Shown here piece after piece: positions 6,276 to 31,968 of a stretch of 37,690 bases of DNA. The DNA comes from Nitrososphaerales archaeon (GTDB lineage Archaea > Thermoproteota > Nitrososphaeria > Nitrososphaerales > CADDZS01). Where the stretch lies: assembly GCA_030037995.1 (NCBI GenBank), contig JASHPQ010000048.1:1-37690 (forward strand). Direction: 5' to 3'. The notes under the pieces were generated by a model, which had not been told where the DNA came from, ran no database searches, and saw only the letters and a list, made by a program, of their open reading frames with translations. Position 1 is the first letter of the stretch. Each line of letters begins with the position of its first letter. The position numbers were made by a program, and so were the translations under genes.

Positions 6276-9200
6276 CTAGACTCCGCGCATGAAGACATCG
6301 ATCATTCCGGTGCCAACCGGGATCGGGAGCCCGACGATCACGTTTTCGGTGACTCCGCGTAGATCCTCCGTTTCGCCTCTCACAGCCGCTTCCGCGAGCG
6401 TCGGCACGGTGATTTCGAAGGCGGCTCGTGCCAACACGCTCGTTTTGGTGCCGGCGACTCCGTGACGGCCGATCTGCTGCAGGAATCCCTTGCTTGTCAT
6501 AAGGTCGGCGACGAGGTAGATGTGTCTGATGTCAACTTCTAGGCCCTGCTCCTCCAGTGTGCTGATTATCTCTCGAACGAGAGCGGATCTCGCGGCCTCG
6601 ATTCCCAGCGACTGATAGATTTCGAAAATGTTGTTTGTAGTTGTTCTCGATTTGTCGACGCCTTCTATGGCTCTGACCTTTTGAAGATTGGATCCGGAGG
6701 TTTGGATCTTCCATTCTTCCCCCTCTTTTACCACAGTCACGCGATCAATGCCAGGTATGCCCTTTACCTTTTGATTCAGGATCTTGTTCTTGTGAATGTG
6801 CAGAGATGCGAAATCGACGTCAATCTTTACGGTGATCACGTTGGTGGCTTCGTCTACTGAAACCTCGCGCTTTGGAGATTCGATAGCAGCAGTGATGTCT
6901 GAAAGCTCCACCTGCCGTTCCGCCATTTTATCCTTGCTAACAAACAAATAGATCTCTCCGGAAGGATCGACTTCAGACTTTGATACTACGTTTGCTACCT
7001 TGGTGAACCTGATCTGGTTTGCGACCTTGATCGCCTTCTCGTTTGACTTTTTGGTTTCTTCATCCAAGAAGACATCCATGGAGGGCGTCGCGGGCTGCTT
7101 TCTGGCATCCACGAGTTCGATCAAGCGGGGCAATCCTAGAGTGACGTCCCTTTCCTTTACACCTGCAAAGTGAAAAGTCCTGAGGGTCATCTGAGTGCCC
7201 GGCTCGCCGATGGATTGCGCCGCCACGATTCCCGAAGCCTCTCCAGGTTCCACCGTCCCCTTCTTCACGAGTTCTACTACCCTCTCGCAAACCTTGTCTA
7301 TCGACTTTGGATCGAGCTTCGATCCCTTGAGGGCTTCCAACAGGTCCTGGTGAAGCCTAGGGTTCAGGTCACTCGCGTATTTTTCTACCGTTCTCTCAAT
7401 CGTCGTCTCGGCCGCCGCTTTTGAAGCGTCAGAGCTCAGGGCGATCGTGTCGACGAGCCGTTCGAGGTTCACTGCCCTCCCGTGGTCGCTCTTGGCGGGG
7501 TCGATCCCATCCTCCCCGTACTTGAACTGGATGATGTTGCCGTTCGGATCTCTCACAGTCAGATCGTACTCTACCTTGAGATGCTCCAGAGCGTTCACCA
7601 ACCGTCTCTGCATGTACCCGCTCTGCTGCGTCCTGACTGCCGTGTCTACGAGTCCTTCCCGTCCTCCCATCGCGTGGAAGAAAAACTCGATTGGATTCAG
7701 GCCGTCGCGATAATTGGATCTCACAAATCCCCGCGCGTTCGGACTCGGATCGCCCTGAGGGAAGTGTGGAAGCGCCCGCTTCAGGTATCCCTTTTCAATT
7801 CTCTTGCCCCTGACCGACTGCTGACCCAGCGCGGCAGTCATCTGACCCAAATTCAGCGTCGACCCTCTAGCGCCGGTGCGTGCCATGATGATGCCAGCGT
7901 TTTGAGGAGAAAACGATTTGTCCGCAATCCTCCCCGCTTTCTCTCTCGCTCTCGAAAGCTCGTTTGCAACGTAGAACTCCAGAGCATCCTCTGGCGACAG
8001 ACCTCTCGTCTCGGGCAGCGTACCATTTTCGTACTGCGTGTTCAATTCTGCGACCCTCGCGTAAGAGTCATCCAGGGTCTCCGAGATTTTGGATCTTACG
8101 TCCTCGGGAAGTTCCAGCTCGTCAAACCCGTAACTGAAACCGGAACGAGTGATAAAGGCCTTCAAGAGCCTGAGGATCGAATTGAGAAAGTTTCTCGCAT
8201 CGTCAGTGCTGTAGTCTTTAGCGATCCGGTGAAGGATCGAGTCAGATTCTTCCGCCCCTATCGCAGCTCTGTCGATGACACCGCTAAGTAGAACCCCATT
8301 CTTGATCACGACGTCTTTCCCGGCGCCTCTGGAGCTCTTCTCCCACTTTGAAATGAGGACGTAGTTGAAGTCCTTCGGCAAGAACAGAGAAAAGAGCTGC
8401 TTTCCAGAGTAGAGCGGAATAGGTTCTATTTTTTCCGGTTTTGGAAGTTCGGCCTCCGGAGGATAACCTCCGGCGACTGCAAGATTGGTAAACTCTTCCT
8501 TCGTGAGATACGTCCCGTCTTTAGTAAGCAGGTAGGCGGCAGTAAGGAAATCCCTAATTCCGCCGATGATCGGCCCGCCGTACCTGGGGGAGAGAATCTG
8601 GTCCTGCACTCTCATCAACGTCAGCGCCTCCGAGCGTGCTTCCTCACTCTGCGGAACGTGGAGGTTCATCTCGTCCCCGTCAAAGTCCGAATTGTATGGA
8701 GGACACACTGCTGGGTGAAGTCGAAACGTTCTGTATGGGAGCACTTTTACGTAGTGAGCCATCACCGACATTCTGTGAAGTGATGGCTGCCGGTTGAAGA
8801 TCACAATGTCTCCGTCGATGAGATGTCTTTCTACGATGAACCCCGGCGCCAGAGAATCCGCGTGCATCTGCAGATCCGTGACGTAGTCCAGTCTGATCTT
8901 AATTCCATCCGGCCTGATGATGTAGTTAGCTCCGGGGTGTTTGAAAGGCCCGTTCAGAATAAGCTTCTTCAGGAATTCGGCATTCCAAGGGGATGTCTTT
9001 TCCGGAATGGTGAGTTTCCTCGCCACTTCAAACGGAATTCCCACTTCTGAAATGTCGAGAGAGGGATCTGGTGAAATGACTGTGCGACTAGAAAAGTCCA
9101 CACGCTTTCCAGAAAGGCTGCCCCTGAATCTACCCTCTTTTCCTTTCAGCCTCTGGCTAATCGTCTTCAGCGGTCTTCCACTTCTGTGGTGCGCCTGCGG

Positions 9201-10067
9201 AATTCCTGAGACTTCATTGTCGAAGTAAGTGGTTACATGGTACTGGAGCAGGTCAACGAGGTCTTGCACAATGAGTGGTGGAGTGCCCGACTCTTTGCTC
9301 TCTCTGACTCTCTGATTCACCCTGAGAATGTCTACGATCTTGTGCGTCAGGTCGTCTTCCGATCTAATGCCCGATTCTAGAGTAATGGAGGGCCTTACCG
9401 CGACGGGAGGAACCGGCAAAACTTGGAGGATAAGCCACTCGGGGCGAGCGCTTGAAGGATCGTACCCCAGAAGTTTCAGATCGTCGCCGGTGATCCTCTC
9501 AAGCCTCTCCCTTATCGCGACCGGAAGCAGTCTAGTAGCACCGCCCGTCTCCGTAATCTCGTGAAACACCGTTGGCTTTGTGAACTCAATTTCATACTGA
9601 CCACGGCCGCAGTGAAAGCATTCTTTTGCCTTTTTCACCTTCGCGAGGATCTCTCTCGAGATGATTTCGATGAGCATGGGAGATGATGAAGTTCTTTCAT
9701 CCAATCTCTTCCGGTATTCGGCAATGTCTTCTTCCGATAAGCGGAGGCGCCCGCAAGCTCTGCAGGTAGAGATCAGAAGCTTGTGCACTTCATCCACGAA
9801 TGCGATGTGGATGACCGGTTCTGCGAGCTCCACGTGTCCAAAGTGCCCGGGACATTTCGGTGCCGTGTTCCCGCAAGTTGCGCACTTTTGCCCGGGCTCG
9901 AGAGTTCCTAGACGATTGTCCATGAGGCCTCCCTGCACCGGCATACCGTCCTCGTCGTATGTTTCGGGCGCGGTGATCTCTGCGACACTGTACTTTCGGA
10001 TTTCACTGGGCGAGAGGAACGCAAACCTGATCCCGCCTACAGCCTTTATCGATTCTTCTAACGACAT
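6276..10067 (-). CDS. rpoA: RNA polymerase subunit A, unsplit A'-A'' fusion
   Basis: 1263 aa. This is the largest catalytic subunit, equivalent to bacterial beta' and eukaryotic Rpb1. The N-terminal zinc sites are C62/C65/C72/H75 (CATCGNTAPKCPGHFGH), with further Cys pairs near 102-105 and 150-155. The catalytic NSDFDGDEM motif (Mg-binding aspartates) lies around residue 460. The bridge helix/funnel part is followed without a break by the A'' portion, including EPGTQMTLRTFHFAG near residue 955. Most archaea encode A' and A'' separately. One continuous gene is typical of Thaumarchaeota and a few other lineages. The ATG at 10067 lies 16 bases after the rpoB stop, so the genes form one operon. 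No internal stop or inserted intein was seen. Confidence 0.97.
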   Translation of the reverse strand: MSLEESIKAVGGIRFAFLSPSEIRKYSVAEITAPETYDEDGMPVQGGLMDNRLGTLEPGQKCATCGNTAPKCPGHFGHVELAEPVIHIAFVDEVHKLLISTCRACGRLRLSEEDIAEYRKRLDERTSSSPMLIEIISREILAKVKKAKECFHCGRGQYEIEFTKPTVFHEITETGGATRLLPVAIRERLERITGDDLKLLGYDPSSARPEWLILQVLPVPPVAVRPSITLESGIRSEDDLTHKIVDILRVNQRVRESKESGTPPLIVQDLVDLLQYHVTTYFDNEVSGIPQAHHRSGRPLKTISQRLKGKEGRFRGSLSGKRVDFSSRTVISPDPSLDISEVGIPFEVARKLTIPEKTSPWNAEFLKKLILNGPFKHPGANYIIRPDGIKIRLDYVTDLQMHADSLAPGFIVERHLIDGDIVIFNRQPSLHRMSVMAHYVKVLPYRTFRLHPAVCPPYNSDFDGDEMNLHVPQSEEARSEALTLMRVQDQILSPRYGGPIIGGIRDFLTAAYLLTKDGTYLTKEEFTNLAVAGGYPPEAELPKPEKIEPIPLYSGKQLFSLFLPKDFNYVLISKWEKSSRGAGKDVVIKNGVLLSGVIDRAAIGAEESDSILHRIAKDYSTDDARNFLNSILRLLKAFITRSGFSYGFDELELPEDVRSKISETLDDSYARVAELNTQYENGTLPETRGLSPEDALEFYVANELSRAREKAGRIADKSFSPQNAGIIMARTGARGSTLNLGQMTAALGQQSVRGKRIEKGYLKRALPHFPQGDPSPNARGFVRSNYRDGLNPIEFFFHAMGGREGLVDTAVRTQQSGYMQRRLVNALEHLKVEYDLTVRDPNGNIIQFKYGEDGIDPAKSDHGRAVNLERLVDTIALSSDASKAAAETTIERTVEKYASDLNPRLHQDLLEALKGSKLDPKSIDKVCERVVELVKKGTVEPGEASGIVAAQSIGEPGTQMTLRTFHFAGVKERDVTLGLPRLIELVDARKQPATPSMDVFLDEETKKSNEKAIKVANQIRFTKVANVVSKSEVDPSGEIYLFVSKDKMAERQVELSDITAAIESPKREVSVDEATNVITVKIDVDFASLHIHKNKILNQKVKGIPGIDRVTVVKEGEEWKIQTSGSNLQKVRAIEGVDKSRTTTNNIFEIYQSLGIEAARSALVREIISTLEEQGLEVDIRHIYLVADLMTSKGFLQQIGRHGVAGTKTSVLARAAFEITVPTLAEAAVRGETEDLRGVTENVIVGLPIPVGTGMIDVFMRGV

Positions 10068-19172: not shown

Positions 19173-19664
19173 TCATTCCAATATCATGTACCAAGTTCCG
19201 AGCGCTTTTGCACAGAGCTTTCCGTCCCTGTCCCTCACTTCTGCTTCGGCGACTGATGTAATTCTGCCGTGGCGAAGGACAAAGCCCTTGGCAGTATACG
19301 GCTCCTTTTTGAGTGGTTCAAGGAAATTGATCTTGAGTTCAAGAGTGACTTGGTCTATGCCCACGTTATTTGACATTACAGCTATACCTCCAACGTTGTC
19401 CAGTGCAAAGGAGATCATCCCGCCGTGGACGATGCCACCGTGCCTTGCGATCTCTTGGCTGAAGGGAAAAGAAAGCTCAGCATAGCCGTCTCCTACTTTC
19501 TTGACGGAGAACTTGGCGAGAGAAAACAGTCCACTTTCGCTTTTTAGAAATTTTTCAAGCTCTTCCTCCACGCTTAGTCCCTGATTCCTCATCCCCGCGA
19601 AAAGACCTTTGAAACCTCCGGCGCTTCGTAGCATTTCTTTAAAGCTCATTTTTTCGAACGACAA
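19173..19664 (-). CDS. Hotdog-fold thioesterase, PaaI family
   Basis: 163 aa, slightly longer than the common 130-150 aa because of an N-terminal helical part. The signature HGGIVHGGMISFALDNVGG lies around residues 76-94, followed by the central strands VTLELKINFLEPLKKEP, GFVLRHGRITSVAEAEVRDRDGKLCAKALGTW. PaaI-like enzymes hydrolyse acyl- or aryl-CoA esters; the substrate cannot be told. Starts with TTG at 19664, or ATG at 19649. It converges on the adenosine-kinase-like gene. Confidence 0.88.
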   Translation of the reverse strand: MSFEKMSFKEMLRSAGGFKGLFAGMRNQGLSVEEELEKFLKSESGLFSLAKFSVKKVGDGYAELSFPFSQEIARHGGIVHGGMISFALDNVGGIAVMSNNVGIDQVTLELKINFLEPLKKEPYTAKGFVLRHGRITSVAEAEVRDRDGKLCAKALGTWYMILE

Positions 19665-21636: not shown

Positions 21637-22053
21637 ATGGTTGAAAATGTTGTTAACAAGTCGTCACCTGACGCGGCTGAAAAAAAGAAAGATCCTCTGA
21701 TTACTCATGTACTCTCCGAGTTCGTGTCAGGAACACTTACCATTACCGTGAACAGTTTTCCTCTTGCGAAGATCGACGGCGAATCCAAGACTCTTGACGT
21801 AGAAGTCAAGGGCTTCAGGGAGTCTGGTTTGCATCTGGGCGAACTGCTGCAGATCGGAGATTCAAAAAAGGGCTTTTTGGAAAAGATTAAACAATCAAAC
21901 AGCTTCGCGCAGAGCCTTCACGAAGATGGATGGAAGGTTCGAGTCTTCGAGGGGGACGAGTCTCTTTTGACTATGGGGAGGGGGGTCTCCCCGCTCACGG
22001 GCTTCATGTGGCTGAACCCGCTAAAGCTCCCGAAGATAATGAGCCTTATTTGA
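21637..22053 (+). CDS. Hypothetical protein, 138 aa
   Basis: Not recognised. Soluble, mixed alpha/beta with a Lys-rich start (ENVVNKSSPDAAEKKKDP), a strand-rich middle (GTLTITVNSFPLAKIDGESKTLDVEVKG), helices, and a hydrophobic end (MWLNPLKLPKIMSLI). ATG at 21637 is divergent from the M48 protease gene; an ACTTTATGATC box lies about 60 bases upstream. Its end overlaps by 8 bases the end of the minus-strand gene that follows, which also reads like a small strand-rich protein, so the two may belong together. Confidence 0.6.
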   Translation: MVENVVNKSSPDAAEKKKDPLITHVLSEFVSGTLTITVNSFPLAKIDGESKTLDVEVKGFRESGLHLGELLQIGDSKKGFLEKIKQSNSFAQSLHEDGWKVRVFEGDESLLTMGRGVSPLTGFMWLNPLKLPKIMSLI

Positions 22054-22333
22054 GCGGCGAGAATTGATCTTTGTCCTGTGTAGTACCTGAAAGGCTAGCC
22101 ACGTTTTTTGAGGCGAGGACTTGTTTTTCCTCGTCTGTCAGCTCCCTCAAGTGAACGACGAGGCTTATGGTACCGTTGATCTCCATTCCCACTGCAGTAC
22201 CAGGAAATCTCAGACTGGTCCTGCTGAACGTCAGATCGACTTGCGATTGCTTGTTGGCTAGTGCCGTTATTAGACCCTCAAACAAATTCTTCTCCGTTTC
22301 TCCAGGCTTTGACATGCTTTGCATCGCTTTCAA
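22046..22333 (-). CDS. Hypothetical protein, 95 aa or longer
   Basis: Not recognised. The middle alternates hydrophobic and polar residues (QVDLTFSRTSLRFPG, GMEINGTISLVVHLRELTDEE), suggesting beta strands. The frame stays open upstream of the ATG at 22333 and reads like protein (around GDPKLLNEHTGPREF) to about 22428, but no ATG or GTG is found there, only TTG at 22342. An ATTTAAAT box near 22431-22438 on the minus strand would start transcription close to 22405. The true start is therefore uncertain and may be a rare codon further upstream. Confidence 0.5.
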   Translation of the reverse strand: MKAMQSMSKPGETEKNLFEGLITALANKQSQVDLTFSRTSLRFPGTAVGMEINGTISLVVHLRELTDEEKQVLASKNVASLSGTTQDKDQFSPLK

Positions 22334-22533
22334 GAATGTGGAGGCGGTATTTACGAATTCTCTCGGTCCAGTGTGTTCGTTAAGTAACTTTGGGTCTCCA
22401 GCGACAACGAGTTGCGGAAGAGATGAACCAATTTAAATGCTGAGAGTAACGGTCGCATGTTCTCGACTCGTCTTCGGGGTGCGAGCTCGGCTGCTGGCAC
22501 GGATTTTGAAAGGACTGACAAACAAACTTGTAT

Positions 22534-22564
22534 CTGTTTCAGAAGCTTTGTCTTCCTTAAGAGA
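22534..22564 (+). repeat. 31-bp perfect inverted repeat, left arm
   Basis: Begins CTGTTTCAGAAGC and lies in the N-terminal coding part of the CoA-transferase pseudogene. It is exactly complementary to 22658-22688, with a 93-base spacer. Confidence 0.95.
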
Positions 22565-22657
22565 CTCCTCCTGTGTGGCCGTTTCGGGATTCAACATGGC
22601 CGCGACGCCAGAGCATTTGATTCTCCACCTGTTTGTACGCTACCAGAAGACCGGCCA

Positions 22658-22688
22658 TCTCTTAAGGAAGACAAAGCTTCTGAAACAG
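22658..22688 (-). repeat. 31-bp perfect inverted repeat, right arm
   Basis: Exact reverse complement of 22534-22564. It begins right after the last recognisable N-terminal residues (TGH) of the pseudogene, so it marks the rearrangement point. Confidence 0.95.
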
Positions 22689-23143
22689 CGAAGAGATCCT
22701 CAGGAACAGGGACGAGAGCTTTCTGCGTGGACTCCTGATCCCATTTCTGGGCTTTTCACCGTGGACACAGAAGGCAGTAGAGGCGAACCTGTCCGGTAGA
22801 CAAATTTGTTCAGTCAGTGTACCGGGTTTTCTTAAGCGGGAAAGAAGCAACTAGGCACACCAAGGAAATACTTTACATCACTGAGAGGGCAGTGTTTCGA
22901 TTGGGAAACCAAGGATTGGTTTTGGAGGAAGTTGTCCCGGGAATAGATCTGGAAAAGGGCGTACTGCAAAAAATGGAGTTTGCGCCAAGGATTAGTCCCA
23001 AACTGGAGCTCATGGACAGGGCATTATTTCAGACGAAGAAAATGGGCTACGGGCTTTGGTCTTTTCAAGTTAACAGAGACGTGCAATTACAAGCAGGCGT
23101 GGTTGGGAGGAGCCTGCAGTGATTACGCGAAGGTTGTAAACCT

Positions 23144-23153: not shown

Positions 23154-23181
23154 AGCTTTGCTCTCATCTGGGAAAACAGGA

Positions 23182-24000
23182 ATGCTTGACACTAATCCAT
23201 ACCGAGTAAAGCCGGGACAGAAGCTCGACATTTCCAAGCTCGATCCTGATGGCGATTCTTCTGTCGTCCTGAAGAAAAGCAGTTCAAAAGATGAGACAAA
23301 AAAACTAGCAAAGAAACTTGACAGTCTCCAAGAGATGCTCTTTGCCGTGCACAAGCACAAGCTAATGATCGTGCTGCAGGCGATGGACACCGGAGGAAAA
23401 GACGGCGTCATCCGGCGAATCTTCGAGGGAATCAACCCTTCGGGTGTCAGGGTGGCCCACTTCAGACAACCATCCCAAGAGGAAAAAGACCATGGGTTTC
23501 TTTGGCGAGCATACCGTCAAATTCCGGAGGACGGCGAGTTAGTGATTTTCAACCGAAGTCACTATGAGGGAGTTCTTGTTGAGCGAGTCCACAACATTGT
23601 TCCGAAGCCGATCTGGGAGAAGCGCTACGGAGAAATAAATGAATTTGAAAACATCATTACAGAAGAAAATGTTACAGTGGTCAAGTTCTTTCTGCACATC
23701 AGCGCTGAGGAGCAGAAGAAACGCATAGAGGAAAGGCTCGCTGACCCTACCAAAGAGTGGAAGTTCAGCGCGGATGACTTGCTCGAGAGAAAGCATTGGA
23801 ACGAGTACATGAAGGCGTACGAAGCAGTCTTGAACAACACCAGCACGGAACATTCCCCGTGGTATGTCGTTCCATCGAATCACAGGTGGCTGCGGGATTT
23901 GATCGTGTCAACGGTAATAGTCGAAACGCTGGAGCGCTTTGACATGAAGTATCCAAAACTTCCTGAAAACCTCGGGCCCGTAAAGATTCCTAGTGTATAG
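23182..24000 (+). CDS. ppk2: Polyphosphate kinase 2 family phosphotransferase
   Basis: 272 aa from ATG 23182; an upstream TTG at 23158 is in frame but too close to the TATA box. PPK2 enzymes move phosphate between polyphosphate and nucleotides, usually making NTP or NDP from polyphosphate. Walker A is AMDTGGKDG (residues 67-75), then INPSGVRVAHFRQPSQEE, the lid-like HGFLWR, and Walker B-like IFNRSHYEGVLVERVH (122-137). Further signatures are KFFLHISAEEQKKRIEERL, DPTKEWKFSADDL, YMKAYE and PWYVVPSNHRWLRD. All key motifs are intact. Which nucleotide it prefers cannot be read from sequence. It would link polyphosphate reserves to the adenylate pool. Confidence 0.95.
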   Translation: MLDTNPYRVKPGQKLDISKLDPDGDSSVVLKKSSSKDETKKLAKKLDSLQEMLFAVHKHKLMIVLQAMDTGGKDGVIRRIFEGINPSGVRVAHFRQPSQEEKDHGFLWRAYRQIPEDGELVIFNRSHYEGVLVERVHNIVPKPIWEKRYGEINEFENIITEENVTVVKFFLHISAEEQKKRIEERLADPTKEWKFSADDLLERKHWNEYMKAYEAVLNNTSTEHSPWYVVPSNHRWLRDLIVSTVIVETLERFDMKYPKLPENLGPVKIPSV

Positions 24001-30498: not shown

Positions 30499-31968
30499 TT
30501 ATTTCAGTACCGAAGAGAGCAGATACTTACCCAGACGATCCGACAACGCCATTATGGTGAGCGAGGGGTTGGCATCGATCACAGAGGGGATGACGCTCCC
30601 GTCCATGACGTAGAGTCCTTCGACATCGTGCATTTTGCAGTTGGCATCCACCACGCTCCTTTCAGGATCTTGGCCCATTCTGCATGATCCCTGCACGTGA
30701 TGACTGAGGTAGACGGAATCGAGAGTCTTTTGAGCGCCAGCAGCCTCGAGCCCTTCCTGACACAGAGCTTTCGCCGCTCTGAATCTGGATTTGTCATCGG
30801 CAGTGACGGGTTTGTAGATCTTTTCAAGGCCAGTTTCGGGATCTCGGAATATCCTGCCGTCGTTCTTGTCGTGAATGTTGACGAATATACCAGCGTAAAA
30901 CCTGTAATTCTCCATAATTTCCTTTTGCTTCCTACCCCAAAGCGGGATTCCATCACTGTCCACCATCACTTGCGAAAAGGAGAGAGGCCCTTCCATCACC
31001 TCTGAAGCCTCAAGCAAAAAGCCTCCTTTTTCTTTCTGGGAAAATTCCTCGATGTGGCCGGAGAGCGGGTGCATCAGCCAGTTGTTCAGCGGTTTCCCAA
31101 ATCTCCCGAAAACCACGGCCGCGGTGTTAACTCCGAAATTCCGGCCAATTTGAGATACGCTCGGGGTATCCCCCACGATGTCCCCCACTCCGGAATTCAT
31201 CAATAGATGTGGAGTATTCAACGCGCCAGCCGCAATGATGACCACCTTGGAAGAGATCCTTCTCTTTTCTTTGCCCTCTTGCAGAAACTCGACTCCTGTG
31301 GCCATAGCTGGATCATCCGAGGATTTGCCCTTAGAGATCAAGATCTTGGTGACTGTCGAGTTGTAAAAGAGCTCGGCTCCAAGATAGATCGCAGGGACGA
31401 TATAGGAGACAAGAGTCCCTCGCTTTGCCTCAGTCGGACATCCGAACAGACATCCGGATTGATCGCATCGTGGGGTGATAAACGCATTAACGGGGAGAAA
31501 GGGATGTCCGATCTTTTCGAACCCCATGTTGATCTGCTTCATCCCTTCGTCCCATTCGGTGTATTTTCTTACGCCGGTGTCCCGCTCAACCTGCTTATAG
31601 TGCGGTGCGAGGTCGGCGGGGGAGAATCTTTCACCTGAATCATTTTTGAGTCCGGTTGCTTCGTACCACTCTGAGAAATTGAATTCCGGAGCCCTGTGTG
31701 CGACAGCGGTGAAAATGGTCGTGGACCCTCCCACGCACCTGCCCATCCCGAGAGCGATTTCGCCTTCCAAGCCCAGCTCGTAATTTTGCGTCCAGCGCGG
31801 CTTTGCCCAGAGGGTTCGTAAGGCGACCAGCTCAAATCTGGTAAAGTCATTCGCGGTGTAAAACCCACCAGCCTCAATTATCGCGACCTTCTTCCCTGCT
31901 TGCGCAAGCAAGTAAGATACGGGGCCTCCACCGGCTCCAGACCCTATCACTATCGCATCATAATTCAA
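30499..31968 (-). CDS. GMC-family FAD oxidoreductase (gluconate dehydrogenase large subunit-like)
   Basis: 489 aa. The FAD-binding start is IVIGSGAGGGPVSYLLAQAG (residues 7-26), with ARM and GGSTTIFTAV for FAD contact. A CxxxCxxGCP-like segment, CDQSGCLFGCP, lies near residue 178. The GMC C-terminal part reads HHVQGSCRMG, VVDANCKMHDVEGLYVMDGS and ANPSLTIMAL. With the subunit 3 gene 7 bases upstream it resembles bacterial membrane gluconate/sorbitol dehydrogenases, which pass electrons to a cytochrome c subunit. No cytochrome gene is present here. The start is TTG at 31968. It probably oxidises a sugar or polyol; the exact substrate is unknown. Confidence 0.9.
   Translation of the reverse strand: MNYDAIVIGSGAGGGPVSYLLAQAGKKVAIIEAGGFYTANDFTRFELVALRTLWAKPRWTQNYELGLEGEIALGMGRCVGGSTTIFTAVAHRAPEFNFSEWYEATGLKNDSGERFSPADLAPHYKQVERDTGVRKYTEWDEGMKQINMGFEKIGHPFLPVNAFITPRCDQSGCLFGCPTEAKRGTLVSYIVPAIYLGAELFYNSTVTKILISKGKSSDDPAMATGVEFLQEGKEKRRISSKVVIIAAGALNTPHLLMNSGVGDIVGDTPSVSQIGRNFGVNTAAVVFGRFGKPLNNWLMHPLSGHIEEFSQKEKGGFLLEASEVMEGPLSFSQVMVDSDGIPLWGRKQKEIMENYRFYAGIFVNIHDKNDGRIFRDPETGLEKIYKPVTADDKSRFRAAKALCQEGLEAAGAQKTLDSVYLSHHVQGSCRMGQDPERSVVDANCKMHDVEGLYVMDGSVIPSVIDANPSLTIMALSDRLGKYLLSSVLK

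Follow-up and report, generated by a model that had tools for sequence, protein, structure and literature searches.

The window analysed here, a stretch of 37,690 nt from the draft genome of a Nitrososphaerales archaeon, carries a broken CoA-transferase gene in which 66 nt of native sequence are replaced by an exact inverted copy of another segment of the same gene. The copy and its source form a 31-bp perfect inverted repeat, which is confirmed in the assembled sequence and is not a product of chance. By comparing the locus with five homologs and with related genomes, we conclude that the inverted copy is very probably the mutational scar of a short-range inverted template switch during DNA synthesis, and not a functional element.

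The CoA-transferase remnant and its neighbourhood

The window encodes RNA polymerase B, RNA polymerase A and subunit H, which identifies it as archaeal. RNA polymerase A' and A'' are present as one 1263-aa chain (6276-10067, minus strand). The two are encoded by split genes in most archaea, and the fused chain is typical of Nitrososphaeria-type archaea. Elsewhere in the window (30499-31968, minus strand) lies a gene for a GMC-type oxidoreductase, whose best match, below the cut-off, is the mycofactocin dehydrogenase MftG. The draft assembly totals 3.31 Mb, spread over 323 contigs, with 88% completeness and 5% contamination.

The remnant is located between two conserved genes (Table 1). In contig G001:C8, from a species of the same genus, five neighbours occur in the identical order, namely an adenosine-specific kinase, the gene corresponding to 19173-19664, an M48 protease, the 95-aa protein and the PPK2-family polyphosphate kinase. 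The last two conserved segments are about 150 nt apart in G001:C8 versus about 815 nt in the window, where the homology of PPK2 starts near 23182. The first-pass annotation had pointed to the syntenic locus of related genomes as a useful comparison; the same neighbours were recovered there, but local alignments detected no CoA-transferase remnant between the 95-aa protein and PPK2 of this sister species. The 95-aa protein has no Pfam match, and related DNA is found at other places in the genomes G002 and G006.

Table 1. Features of the broken CoA-transferase gene and its flanking genes (window coordinates)
Feature	Positions	Strand	Evidence and remarks
Left conserved neighbour, 95-aa protein	22046-22333	-	64% identical in G001; same order in G001:C8
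Piece A	22521-22658	+	Homolog residues ~10-54; 62-67% aa identical in a tblastn search with the intact homolog of G003
Source arm	22534-22564	+	VSEALSSLRD region of the native coding sequence, aligned in register with SxALSxxRD of the homologs; exactly complementary to 22658-22688
Spacer between the arms	22565-22657	+	93 nt; native coding sequence of piece A with continuous homology to intact genes
Derived arm (inverted copy in place of 66 nt of native gene)	22658-22688	+	~28 nt new; five of five homologs have exactly 66 nt here
Piece B	22687-22791	+	Homolog residues 77-111; shifted frame; tblastn 60% identity
Large-deletion junction	22792-22795	+	~348 codons gone (homolog residues 112-459), including E353 of the G003 homolog
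Piece C	22796-23047	+	Homolog residues 460-543, in the third frame; 58-65% identical to homologs of the family
Right conserved neighbour, PPK2-family polyphosphate kinase	23158-24000	+	PF03976 E=3.9e-71; TIGR03709 E=3.6e-108; same order in G001:C8

Pieces A, B and C are collinear with one intact family member, with 58-67% identity, and are distributed over three reading frames. The earlier recognition of N- and C-terminal pieces of a single CoA-transferase is thereby borne out, and the alignment to CoA-transferases that it called for assigns the collinear pieces to the YdiF/FadX-like one-chain family. Piece C matches the C-terminus of E. coli YdiF (2ahu) with E=3.5e-16. The intact G003 homolog (561 aa; L010:6949-8634) aligns with YdiF over 530 residues, nearly full length (E=3.1e-85), and matches the FadX model (NCBIfam NF052271) at 2.9e-89, yet remains below the cut-off of that model.

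Compared with the one-chain acetate/acyl CoA-transferases (YdiF, 2AHU/2AHV/2AHW; FadX, NF052271), the window copy retains two N-terminal pieces and the C-terminus, whereas 22 and 348 codons are missing, the remaining sequence occupies three frames, and E353 of the G003 homolog, the counterpart of Glu333 in the YdiF alignment, falls in the deleted part. Glu333 is the catalytic glutamate of YdiF. Judged from these alignments, the window copy is a pseudogene by descent of a YdiF/FadX-type CoA-transferase, without a complete chain. The open reading frame at 22437-22799 consists of piece A, the inverted copy and out-of-frame sequence, and its predicted product beyond piece A would not be a CoA-transferase-family protein. 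The open frame of piece C extends to a stop codon at 23120-23122.

The first-pass annotation had placed a loss of about 400 residues at the inverted repeat and treated both as one break. The large loss is real, but it comprises about 348 residues and is found at a second junction, about 104 nt downstream of the inverted copy, where about 1.04 kb was removed; only 66 nt were lost at the repeat itself. The single break does not hold, as homology to the intact gene resumes at 22687-22791 between the two junctions. The alignments show that the locus contains two separate lesions, the 66-nt replacement and the deletion of about 348 codons, which may have arisen together or in either order.

Substitutions between the window copy and its homologs amount to 0.53-0.69 at third codon positions versus 0.17-0.36 at positions 1 and 2, indicating that the sequence spent most of its history as a coding gene. 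In the phylogenetic tree the window copy groups with the family f1 homologs (support 94/89, no finer resolution) on a long branch (0.7), and it is about 52-62% identical to them. A second family member is present in the same assembly (L039, G000:C194:1-819) and is 85% identical to the G003 homolog, which indicates that the window copy is a diverged paralog. The C194 copy is better conserved; the contig end truncates it to 273 residues, and the C-terminal half was not found elsewhere in the assembly. A search for the nearest intact relative of the window paralog in 300 genomes of the order gave a best identity of 65% and no closer ancestor. Among the homologs, that of G008 (L012, G008:C191:8636-10306) contains one in-frame TGA, thus it may be broken too, or the codon may be a sequencing error.

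The inverted repeat and the segment it replaced

The two arms of the repeat are exact reverse complements at 31 of 31 positions across a spacer of 93 nt, in agreement with the initial description of an exact 31-bp inverted copy of the gene's own 5' segment. Complementarity ends abruptly beyond the arms, with 5 of 12 positions paired outside and 4 of 20 inside. This is the sole perfect inverted repeat with arms of at least 16 nt and a spacer of up to 600 nt in 979 kb of the organism's own genome (sampled by contig, about 30% of the assembly), the spectrum of which otherwise tops out at 14 nt under the same spacer limit. In simulated sequence the longest perfect inverted repeats reach 14-16 nt, and approximately 463 kb from three related genomes contain none of at least 16 nt with spacers up to 600 nt. 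The chance expectation for such a 31-nt pair is about 1e-10 to 4e-10 per genome.

The rarity of the repeat also bears on the possibility that an amplification or library chimera, or a misassembly, made the inverted copy in a gene that was otherwise differently broken. The assembly is a fragmented draft, and strand-displacement amplification chimeras with template switching and inverted repeats are described (PMC9484634). However, an artefact-prone library should give many such repeats, and no other was found in the 979 kb. On most of the assembled molecules, an artefact would also have had to produce two exact junctions at a distance of 31 nt and to resume the original template after skipping 66 nt. 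Moreover, the gene is independently broken by the 1.04-kb deletion, as expected of a true pseudogene. A laboratory origin is therefore considered unlikely.

Comparison with the five homologs reveals which arm is native and that the other replaced 66 nt. In all five, exactly 66 nt (22 codons) extend from a CAY codon (His, the end of piece A) to AGCGA (the start of piece B), the ancestral 66 nt being inferred by length and position and not letter by letter. In the window those 66 nt are swapped for the inverted copy, and homology restarts exactly at the end of the copy with AGCGA. The copy is identical to the in-register homolog sequence at 4-12 of 31 positions (background 7.9), and its 60-nt flanks are identical at 31-41 of 60. 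Thus, the first arm, which aligns with the homologs, is native, and the second, which matches them at about background level, is the replacement. Two further matches of the copy, one of 9 bases elsewhere in the C194 homolog and one of 20 of 30 positions in G007, are within the score range of random offsets and were rejected as chance.

The junctions were placed to within 1-3 nt, as the homologs are only about 60% identical. The overlap is 1-2 nt (T or TC) at the left junction and 2-3 nt at the right one (AG or CAG, according to which ancestral base was lost). The net change at this lesion is -38 nt, which results in a frameshift. The absence of any difference between the arms limits their divergence since the event to at most about 9% (95% upper bound), indicating that the event is recent relative to the split from the nearest relatives.

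The same comparison speaks to the quasipalindrome-type correction, in which an older imperfect second arm would have been made perfect. Among the template-switch routes of E. coli, this one is known best (PMC6357072, PMC7202029). However, with the in-register identities of the five homologs scattered around background, no prior arm is visible, although at about 60% identity of the homologs a lineage-specific arm is possible, and the change from 66 nt to about 28 nt amounts to a replacement and not to a correction. We regard this route as very unlikely.

Likewise, the 31-bp repeats flanking a short interior are reminiscent of the terminal inverted repeats of a small MITE-like mobile element inserted into the gene. 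The interior and the first arm, however, belong to the coding sequence of the gene itself and align in register with the homologs, and such an insertion is contradicted by unbroken coding homology through the first arm and spacer. The repeat sequence is present in a single copy in the genome. A repeat search near the site detected no direct repeats of at least 16 nt, flanking or otherwise, no target-site duplication is visible, and no transposase was found among the genes examined. The probability of a mobile-element origin is close to nil, and the earlier preference for template switching over a transposon stands, since an inverted self-copy fits the former.

The predicted hairpin

The 155-nt hairpin formed by the arms and spacer has a predicted folding energy of -71.8 kcal/mol (z -7.9), so the very stable fold anticipated by the first-pass annotation is upheld; its suggestion of an RNA role is not. 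The strength of the fold is what any 31-bp perfect repeat would give. The arms are still perfect, as would be expected if selection maintained a hairpin RNA or a regulatory element with a function, but perfect arms are equally expected from a recent event, given the bound on their divergence. Searches of other genomes, two of them from the same genus, detected no homologous hairpin, and Rfam gave nothing at E<=1. In a scan whose models do not extend to archaeal promoters, the promoter- and terminator-like matches at the site are at chance level. An RNA function of the hairpin is unsupported, and there is no reason to assume one. Both its maintenance by selection and a nascent role in this lineage, in which a transcript of the hairpin would be starting to serve as a regulatory or double-stranded RNA, are highly improbable.

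Template switching as the probable origin of the inverted copy

If the inverted copy is the scar of a template switch, DNA synthesis would have been passing through an expendable CoA-transferase paralog when the growing strand left its template at about 22658. With 1-2 nt of pairing, this strand would have switched to same-sense DNA some 93 nt behind it, either its own folded-back nascent strand or the sister strand, copied 28-31 nt in inverted orientation and then rejoined its first template 66 nt further on, at AG(CGA). In the product, an inverted copy would stand in place of 66 nt, the frame would be shifted and a perfect 31-bp hairpin would be present. The opposite direction of synthesis would lead to the same product, as would copying of the nascent versus the sister strand; we infer both template switching as the mechanism and the strand that was growing. 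The separate junction about 104 nt downstream accounts for the loss of about 1.04 kb. Redundancy, provided by the second CoA-transferase copy, may be the reason why the lesions were tolerated.

The locus has the features of a short-range template switch, that is, an exact nearby reverse-complement copy, with an ancestral source, a derived copy and replacement of the local sequence. In great apes the copied tract of such switches has a median of 12 nt and a maximum of 128 nt (PMC7954356); the window event, with a source within about 100 nt and a copied tract of 28-31 nt, is inside this range. Template switching is known to yield reverse-complement copies and perfect hairpins in one step (PMC8794818), and in E. 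coli it takes place where forks are blocked (PMC6357072).

The event resembles the short-range switches of the four-point model, described in great apes (PMC7954356) and in rRNA and microRNA hairpins (PMC8794818), in the inverted copying from about 100 nt away, the replacement of sequence between the points of exit and return, and the perfect hairpin. It differs from them in affecting an archaeal protein-coding pseudogene and in a tract that exceeds the ape median of 12 nt; furthermore, the window event was reconstructed from distant homologs and not from closely related genomes. The quasipalindrome-associated mutations of E. coli and yeast (PMC7202029, PMC6357072, PMC8604942) share with it the fold-back or sister-strand inverted copying in replication. 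In contrast to these, no prior imperfect inverted repeat is visible here, and the event created a new repeat and deleted sequence.

In the literature searched, such footprints come mainly from primates, yeast, rRNA genes and E. coli reporters. The window provides a clean archaeal case of a short-range template-switch mutation in a pseudogene, in which both the polarity and the replaced length are resolved. One case leaves the general picture unchanged, but it demonstrates that archaeal pseudogenes can be scanned for such footprints.
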